A stretch of 64,000 nt of DNA from an uncultured Bacteroidota bacterium (lineage in GTDB: Bacteria > Bacteroidota > Bacteroidia > Chitinophagales > Chitinophagaceae): assembly GCA_903906365.1 (NCBI GenBank), contig CAIVKC010000057.1, forward strand, positions 124,001 to 188,000, written 5' to 3'. The translations under genes were made by a program, and so were the position numbers. Under the pieces are notes generated by a model, which had not been told where the DNA came from, searched no databases, and worked only from the letters and a program-made list of their open reading frames with translations. Below are positions 11,383 to 13,455 of this stretch, one piece after another; position 1 is the stretch's first letter, and each line of letters begins with the position of its first letter.

Positions 11383-11637
11383 CTTTGTCATCGGAATTAA
11401 CCCGGGCTTTACCCAGGATTGGTTCCTTCGCTGATTTTCATCAGTCATGGACTATATCATCACCCGTTCCGGGTGCCGGAGGCTGTGGGCTCACCGTAGT
11501 GTCCCTAGTCTCTGAACCTTCTCTGGTCTTCCCCAGAGCTCGGCTGCTGATTGGCATATGTCCCTCCAGGACACGAAGCGTTCCAGCAATTCTTCCGGTT
11601 TTTAATCTGATATTCCTATCAGATGGGTCCAACTCCG
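11383..11637 (-). other. Group I self-splicing intron (255 nt, no ORF) inserted in the tmRNA T-loop
   Basis: Minus strand contains canonical P/Q/R/S-type elements: AATTGCTGGAA, AATCAGCAGCCGAGC, GTTCAGAGACTAG, GATATAGTCC. P1: exon GGGTT pairs with GACCC with terminal U.G; P10: intron GGAGTTG pairs with 3' exon CGACTCC; intron ends in omega-G; excision restores TTCGACT T-loop. Confidence 0.93.
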
Positions 11638-11864
11638 AACCCCTGTCCAAACATATTCCCCAAAAGCTTTCTACATGCTTATCCTGGTATTGATTGTCGG
11701 GAGATGACAGGAACCGGGCAAACCGATCATCTCCTTAGCTGTATGGTCTTAGGCAACAGTCACAGCCTTCCGTTGCAGCGTCCCGTATTTCTTTATGAGT
11801 CGGCGGTGCAGCTTGGTAACAGGAAAACCCGCTATCACGGCCCTAATGACTATCTAATCACTGA

Positions 11865-11894
11865 TTAGGCAGCCATGGCATACGAAGTATTGCC
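11865..11894 (-). CDS. tmRNA proteolysis tag reading frame (GNTSYAMAA)
   Basis: Codons GGC AAT ACT TCG TAT GCC ATG GCT GCC TAA in the mRNA-like region of ssrA; ends in AMAA as in typical tags. Confidence 0.8.
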   Translation of the reverse strand, partial: GNTSYAMAA

Positions 11895-12063
11895 ATTTGA
11901 ATGTTGAATATTCAGATTTACGTGCTAATTATCCAACGCACGGCATGCTTACACTCTCAAAGATCTATGCTGTCAAAACCAGGCACCCCCAGTTTATATA
12001 AGCCCGATGGTTCCGCTGATCTGGTGTATGCCACCTGAAACGAAACCAACTGCAAATTTACGA

Positions 12064-13455
12064 TTATCTGCCTTTACCCCATCCAAACCAGTCATTTAAA
12101 TTTGCGTACAACACCAGGGCCAGCAGCAGGACCATACCCACAATCTGGGCATATTCCAGGAATTTCTGGTTTGGTTTCCGGCCGGTGACCATCTCTACGA
12201 GGGTGAAAAGGACATGCCCCCCGTCCAGGGCAGGTATCGGCAATAAATTCATGAAAGCCAATGCAATAGAGAAAAATGCCGTCACCATCCAGAAAGATTG
12301 CCAGTCCCATACGGAAGGGAAAATGGAGCCCATGCTCTTGAAACCACCTACCCCTTTATAAGCCTCTGTTTTCGGGGAGAACATCTTTTTGAACTGGTCA
12401 ATATAGGATCCCAGGTTTTTTACGGCCAGGCCCAGGCCCGCTGGAAAGGATTCAAAAAAACCATAACTCTTACGCTGGATTTTCAGGAAGCCCATGGAAT
12501 CCAGGCTTTCAAAATCCTCGAATTTGAAAAAACCCAGGTTGGCATCCTTACTGACCAGGGCATGAAGGGTATCTATTTGGTGGTTTCTTTCCACCGCCAG
12601 GCGAATGTATTCGCCCCGCCGGTTGGCTATGGCCCGCTTATACTCATCAAAATAGGTTACCGGTAGGGAATCAACCCCGACGATTTTATCATATCGCTTT
12701 AGACCGGCCCTGGCCGCGTTGGAAGTATCGGGGATAACAAAGGCAATGGCAGGGATCCTGGGGGTAAATAAGGCCAGTCCGCCTCTTTTCTTTTCAACCA
12801 GTTTGCCAATCAGGTTAACCGGCAGGTTGATCACCTGTTTTTGCCCGTCCCTTTCCACTTCCACGGTTTCACCCAGGATCAGATTGGGCATGATGTCCTC
12901 GTAATAAACGATCGGATGGTTGTTAATGGCCAGTATTTTATCACCATCCTTAAAATGGAGATCATACATCAGGCTATCGGTGATGGAAATGCCATTTTTT
13001 ATGCTGTCAATTGGAATCTTGCGTTCCCCCCAGACAAACAGGATCATGGCATAGATCACAAAGGCCATAATTACATTTACGGTAACCCCGCCGATCATGA
13101 TGATCAGCCGCTGCCAGGCCGGCTTGCTCCTGAATTCCCAGGGTTCAGCCGGTTGACTGAGTTGTTCCTTATCCATGCTTTCATCTATCATGCCCGATAT
13201 CTTCACATATCCGCCCAGCGGAAGCCAGCCAATGCCATAGACCGTATCTCCGATTTTTTTCTTGATCAGGGCGAAATAGGGGTCGAAAAAGAGGAAGAAT
13301 TTCTCTACCCGGCACTTAAATAATTTGGCCGGAAGGTAATGGCCAAATTCATGCAAAATGACTATGATAGATAAGGATAGTATTAGTTGACCCGCTTTGA
13401 TACCCACCATTCCCCAGTTAATTGCTAATAATGTCATATGGTTGAATTCTAACAA
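12064..13455 (-). CDS. rseP: RIP (site-2) zinc metalloprotease
   Basis: 'ILHEFGHYLPAKLFKCRVEKFFLFFDP' HExxH; PDZ region; 'NLLPIPALDGGHVLFTLVEMVTGRKP'. Confidence 0.93.
   Translation of the reverse strand: MLEFNHMTLLAINWGMVGIKAGQLILSLSIIVILHEFGHYLPAKLFKCRVEKFFLFFDPYFALIKKKIGDTVYGIGWLPLGGYVKISGMIDESMDKEQLSQPAEPWEFRSKPAWQRLIIMIGGVTVNVIMAFVIYAMILFVWGERKIPIDSIKNGISITDSLMYDLHFKDGDKILAINNHPIVYYEDIMPNLILGETVEVERDGQKQVINLPVNLIGKLVEKKRGGLALFTPRIPAIAFVIPDTSNAARAGLKRYDKIVGVDSLPVTYFDEYKRAIANRRGEYIRLAVERNHQIDTLHALVSKDANLGFFKFEDFESLDSMGFLKIQRKSYGFFESFPAGLGLAVKNLGSYIDQFKKMFSPKTEAYKGVGGFKSMGSIFPSVWDWQSFWMVTAFFSIALAFMNLLPIPALDGGHVLFTLVEMVTGRKPNQKFLEYAQIVGMVLLLALVLYANLNDWFGWGKGR

Follow-up and report, generated by a model that had tools for sequence, protein, structure and literature searches.

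Group I introns in the T-loop of tmRNA form a described class. Mao et al. (2025, NAR Genom Bioinform; PMC11915505) reported 883 intron-bearing tmRNA genes with insertions at four T-loop subsites, namely position 7 (the main one), position 8 (Saprospiraceae), position 2 (Anaerolineae and one Myxococcota) and position 3, the last being reported solely from the class Bacteroidia. The separate subsites were taken as suggesting multiple founding events, and phage carriers of position-3 introns are not mentioned in the main text of that article. Here, we analyzed a window of 64,000 nucleotides from an uncultured Bacteroidota bacterium of the family Chitinophagaceae (contig CAIVKC010000057.1), in which the T-loop of ssrA is split, the break lying between U55 and C56. 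Reading the published numbering as internucleotide loop positions, this site corresponds to position 3; a different group I intron with a long P8, in the ssrA T-loop of L031 (genome G233; same order, another family), lies at position 8 and fits this numbering. Judged by its sequence, the window intron belongs to the published position-3 class, and the question raised in the initial annotation, whether this lineage is among the known cases, is thus answered by the 2025 report for the class Bacteroidia.

The ssrA gene and its insertion site

The interrupted gene extends from 11990 to 11365 on the minus strand and matches the tmRNA covariance model RF00023 with 61.8 bits (Rfam cut-off 47). Its 353-nt 5' exon (11638..11990), which aligns colinearly with intron-free tmRNAs from the genus, contains the 5' strand of the acceptor stem (GGGGGTG) and the tag region and runs to the T-arm GGGGTT, ending as GGACAGGGGTT at 11638. 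The 3' exon, CGACTCCCCTCACCTCCA, from 11382 to 11365, consists of CGACT, CCCCT, CACCTCC and the discriminator A, as assigned by stem pairing. The tag reading frame (11865..11900, minus strand) translates as ...SNGNTSYAMAA*, ending in NTSYAMAA where the ARAGORN tags of genus relatives give GNTQYAMAA. When the intron is removed, the acceptor stem is paired at 7/7 positions with a G.U as third pair, as expected for an alanine acceptor, and the T-stem is paired at 5/5 positions flanking UUCGACU. The full CCA is absent from the 3' exon, as in many relatives. An intact SmpB is encoded in the same genome (194.8 bits) and, together with the tRNA-like ends and the tag frame, identifies the gene as a tmRNA (RF00023). 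ARAGORN called no tmRNA in either the spliced or the unspliced sequence, and, as it is also blind to some uninterrupted relatives such as L010, its result was left out of the evidence.

The insert occupies positions 11637-11383 of the minus strand, starts with CGGAGTTGGACCC and ends with GACAAAG. It separates nucleotides 2 and 3 of the T-loop, with the junction GGGGTT|CGACTCCCC and the spliced context GGGGUU|CGACU. The initial annotation had placed a 255-nt split of the T-loop at 11383-11637, with TTCGACT restored by excision, and both the location and the restored loop proved exact. tmRNA genes were searched in 40 genomes, comprising the source genome and relatives, 34 of which gave a match over the cut-off; wherever the T-loop was read among these 34, it was uninterrupted except in G000 and G038. 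The spliced sequence aligned end to end with 20 tmRNA loci of the genus, the best being L010 with 90.6% identity over 372 nt. Upstream of ssrA lies an rseP-like M50 protease gene (12064..13455, minus strand; Pfam PF02163), a neighbor common to at least 15 of the 20 genus loci by tblastn. Intron-minus ssrA genes are thus found within the genus in conserved synteny. Since the exons are colinear and the rseP neighbor is conserved, ssrA is the host's own gene. Its location within a prophage was ruled out, the neighbors being rseP, dxr, a GH3-family gene and an L21 gene, with the rseP surroundings kept in the genus. The empty site in genus relatives argues that the source species or its close kin acquired the intron recently.

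Intron architecture and predicted splicing

The insert (11383..11637, minus strand) matches RF00028 over its full length (model 1-253) with 69.7 bits (cut-off, 50; E value, 1.3e-15), and this is the sole RF00028 match in the genome; the Intron_gpI and tmRNA models are therefore both over their cut-offs at this locus. Every helix named in the initial annotation was recovered on the minus strand: the P2 hairpin ATCTGATA-GGAA-TATCAGAT (11605..11624), P6 (CTCTGG/CCAGAG), the guanosine-binding helix P7 (GACTA/TAGTC, 11449..11510) and P9 (CTGAT/ATCAG), as well as the two pairings with the exons. P1 (11625..11642) joins exon GGGUU (11642-11638) to intron GACCC (11629-11625) and ends in a U.G at the 5' splice site, and P10 (11376..11635) joins intron GGAGUUG to 3' exon CGACUCC (11382-11376) over 7 bp. 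Further helices, unlisted there, are P3 (CCGGA/TCCGG), P4 (UUGCUG/CAGCAG), a short P5 and P8 (CACCC/GGGUG). The insert thus shows a P3-P9 core with the P3/P7 pseudoknot, a U.G in P1, a 3' G and P10, as expected of a group I intron. The segment GGGACACTACGGTGAGCCC, which separates P7 from P3', resembles a P7.1/P7.2 extension as in subgroup IA. In line with the initial annotation, no homing endonuclease gene was found in the window intron: its longest ATG ORF has 38 aa, and the 109-aa ORF that crosses it in antisense matched nothing in Pfam. The intron-borne endonuclease by which mobile (homing) group I introns are recognized is absent from this one.

In order to evaluate the helices, 21 position-3 introns (the window intron and 20 others) were aligned over P1-P9. 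The proposed helices are paired in 92.1% of cells, against only 31.6-45.1% when the partners are slid by 1-3 columns; both-sided changes occur at 28 of the 47 pairs, and the covariation score was equaled by 0/500 shuffles. Pairing reaches 98.1% of cells in P1, 99% in P7 and 100% in P2 and P3, with both-sided changes in 7/8 pairs of P2, 5/5 of P3, 5/6 of P6 and 3/6 of P4. P3, P4 and P6 alternate between dissimilar sequences while pairing is kept, P4 being for example UUGCUG/CAGCAG or UUCAGG/CCUGAG. P9 has a low score because the helix is out of register in this alignment. For P10, the mean run over 24 introns is 4.0 bp, versus 2.2 in shuffled loops (maximum of 2000 shuffles, 3.25), and the guide tracks changes of the 3' exon in related introns (CGAAUC with GAUUCG, CGAUUCC with GGAAUCG).

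The group I intron claimed for the tmRNA T-loop is thus borne out by covariance-model matches, by covariation and by an empty site with synteny in the same genus. Very probably, this tmRNA gene, functional by its looks, has a precursor that is spliced by the compact ribozyme lodged in its T-loop. As we picture it, ssrA would be transcribed as a precursor with its tRNA-like T-loop split by the ribozyme, whose internal guide would form P1 with the five terminal bases of the 5' exon and P10 with the 3' exon. Using an external guanosine docked in P7, the ribozyme would cut after U55 and then join U55 to C56, restoring the loop UUCGACU. The mature tmRNA could next fold, accept alanine and work together with SmpB. 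From the sequence we infer that splicing occurs in the cell and in this order, and it would be sound to expect that ribosome rescue depends on ribozyme activity.

The absence of an endonuclease gene would also suit an intron that no longer splices, ssrA being then a pseudogene and another rescue factor being in charge. This is very unlikely, since the core helices are all intact, conservation extends to the exons, the tag frame and the acceptor stem, SmpB is intact, and no second tmRNA over the cut-off is listed in the genome. Slightly less credible still is a real cut 1 or 2 nt downstream, at loop position 4 or 5. The initial annotation considered the boundaries fixed by P1 and P10; these two pairings stand, but the sequence leaves an ambiguity of 1-2 nt, because both the insert and the 3' exon begin with CG, so that a cut shifted by 1-2 nt yields an identical spliced product. 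A shifted cut would nevertheless abolish the U.G with which P1 ends at the splice site, and one shifted by 1 nt would in addition violate the terminal-G rule, whereas a U at -1 with a P1 U.G or U-A is present in all 21 aligned introns and a 3'-terminal G in most. The predicted splice site is set solely by these canonical rules, U at -1 and G at the 3' end. Finally, an assembly error or chimera can practically be dismissed, since independent homologs exist for the exons, the synteny and the intron, and completeness and contamination of the source genome are put at 99.94% and 0.02%.

Position-3 introns in other genomes and in phages

A strict DNA pattern combining the position-3 junction, the guide and the P element was scanned against 85,462 species genomes, among which the source genome of the window is possibly not included, and against IMG/VR. 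The species genomes gave six matches, two of them genuine position-3 introns: L065, from Prolixibacteraceae, and L066, from Bacteroidetes (PXTV01000167.1), the latter identical with the ssrA intron of G038, a genome of the same order as the window host. The other matches were set aside as position 7 (L062), uninterrupted (L063) or due to chance (L064 and L067). A third cellular position-3 intron, L097 (G370), was obtained by searching the class with Rfam. Bacteroidia also contain several dozen other group I introns (L033-L060, L098-L114), many adjoining or inside tRNA-Leu-like genes, others at further sites, and one (L058) in 23S rRNA.

In IMG/VR, the pattern matched 29 times, with both splice junctions resolved in 21 cases (among L069-L096; e.g., L088:7071-7291 and L081:1523-1743) and the remaining 8, devoid of a reliable 3' exon, left out of the count; the database being redundant and the pattern strict, such counts are not rates. 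When 19 viral contigs were scanned with Rfam, 15 were over the RF00028 cut-off (L076, L077, L087 and L095 were below) and 4 were also over that of RF00023, where split tmRNAs score low, as the window gene does. PHROGs detected a terminase large subunit on L086, a phage DNA polymerase on L079, helicases on L085 and a B-family polymerase on L095, a 355-kb record. The exons of L081 resemble tmRNA stretches of cultured Flavobacterium and Cellulophaga phages, the T-loop of Calle_1 being uninterrupted. The crAss-like phage cr128_1 (MT774392.1; L120, 1201-2530) contains an unannotated tmRNA with an 869-nt position-3 intron ending CTTCG|CGAATCCCTC. BLAST of the window intron gave no match in plasmids and only partial core matches in phages, the two examined adjoining DNA polymerase genes.

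Three observations on these phage sequences are reported in passing. The introns of L092 and L096 end in A (TATTTA|CGA) and not in the expected 3' G, which may point to another splice site or to an exception to the rule. A GOLLD RNA (328 bits, L096:9693-10107, minus strand) is located about 1.2 kb from the split tmRNA on the same phage contig. An unannotated tmRNA gene (58 bits) is present in Flavobacterium phage FpV4 (L117, 82361-82163) and in related F. psychrophilum phages.

Many of the phage introns carry an endonuclease gene. LAGLIDADG genes, assigned by the motif GFFDADGSI with Pfam run on two sense examples, lie on the sense strand in phage introns L077 and L089 and in the cellular intron L065, and on the antisense strand in eight phage introns (L075, L076, L081, L082, L085, L087, L090 and L094; 139-141 aa). 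As the latter are antisense to the tmRNA, they are untranslatable from the intron transcript and need their own promoter. Another type of antisense ORF, HNH-like by eye, occurs in L088 and cr128_1; that of cr128_1 (186 aa) has a zf-FCS zinc finger as its sole Pfam match. All these genes sit after P9; in their stead, the corresponding segment of the window intron (11384..11430, minus strand) has a hairpin, CCTGGG/CCCGGG.

Origin of the intron and comparison with known systems

In a tree including other introns of the class, the window intron falls in a 15-member tmRNA set (13 phage rows, L065 and the window) with 99/99 support. Branches with 100/100 support separate the tmRNA introns from 36/40 others, which led us to reject descent from the tRNA introns that are common in the class. 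In a tree of position-3 introns alone, the sister of the window intron is the phage row L088 (89/93), and the cellular introns of G038 and G370 fall among phage introns of a second type. Monophyly of the phage type-A introns by themselves is rejected by the AU test (p = 0.003, a somewhat flattering value since the type-A group was named after the first tree was seen). With a short alignment of about 210 columns, an unrooted tree and several open forks, the direction of transfer has to be inferred.

It is reasonably likely that position-3 introns are a phage-borne homing lineage that has moved repeatedly between phage tmRNA and host ssrA in Bacteroidota and has swapped endonucleases (LAGLIDADG on either strand, HNH-like), the window representing one recent endonuclease-less landing in a host. 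Its intron would then be an immigrant devoid of endonuclease, probably come from a phage, of a lineage living mainly in phage tmRNA genes. Inheritance within bacterial lineages, in which case phages would have taken the intron from hosts and the mixed tree would reflect their sampling of bacterial introns, is possible though rather unlikely. The unrooted, short tree would allow it, and a cellular intron occupies the same site in at least three further lineages of the class (L065, L066/L032 and L097). However, among the species of the genus that were checked, only the source species has the intron, the read loops of its relatives being uninterrupted; moreover, the rejection of a phage-only type-A clade places cell introns among phage ones, and the same pattern gave 21 resolved cases in viral contigs versus 2 in the species-genome collection.

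The intron class is already known, and a phage reservoir would be the new part: a literature search, with most subscription journals outside its coverage, returned no paper linking phage tmRNA with position-3 introns. The locus offers a clean natural case, in a class already described, of a core quality-control RNA predicted to mature only if a ribozyme works. Phage-carried tmRNA genes are a plausible vehicle that would explain same-loop ssrA introns in unrelated Bacteroidota, and concrete phage genomes are now at hand for testing phage spread, one of them deposited with its tmRNA unannotated.

With the position-3 introns of Mao et al. (2025), the window intron shares the U55|C56 site, the U at -1, the 3' G, the lack of an endonuclease gene and, very likely, a Bacteroidia host, and no structural difference was found; its length of 255 nt comes close to the average reported there (293 nt). 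The position-7 introns, mostly from Bacillota (Mao et al. 2025 and its reference 11), involve the same gene, loop and kind of ribozyme, but interrupt that loop four nucleotides closer to its 3' end. Some phages, e.g., Salmonella phage BPS17W1 and Pseudoalteromonas phage J2-1, have group I introns in their genes for DNA polymerase and ribonucleotide reductase; the core DNA of these introns is similar to that of related phage tmRNA introns, but they are sited in protein genes. The phage position-3 introns of IMG/VR and cr128_1 have the same site and core as the window intron, which is 74-77% identical to the nearest, whereas their host gene is phage-borne and many of them, 639-869 nt in length, carry LAGLIDADG or HNH-like genes after P9.
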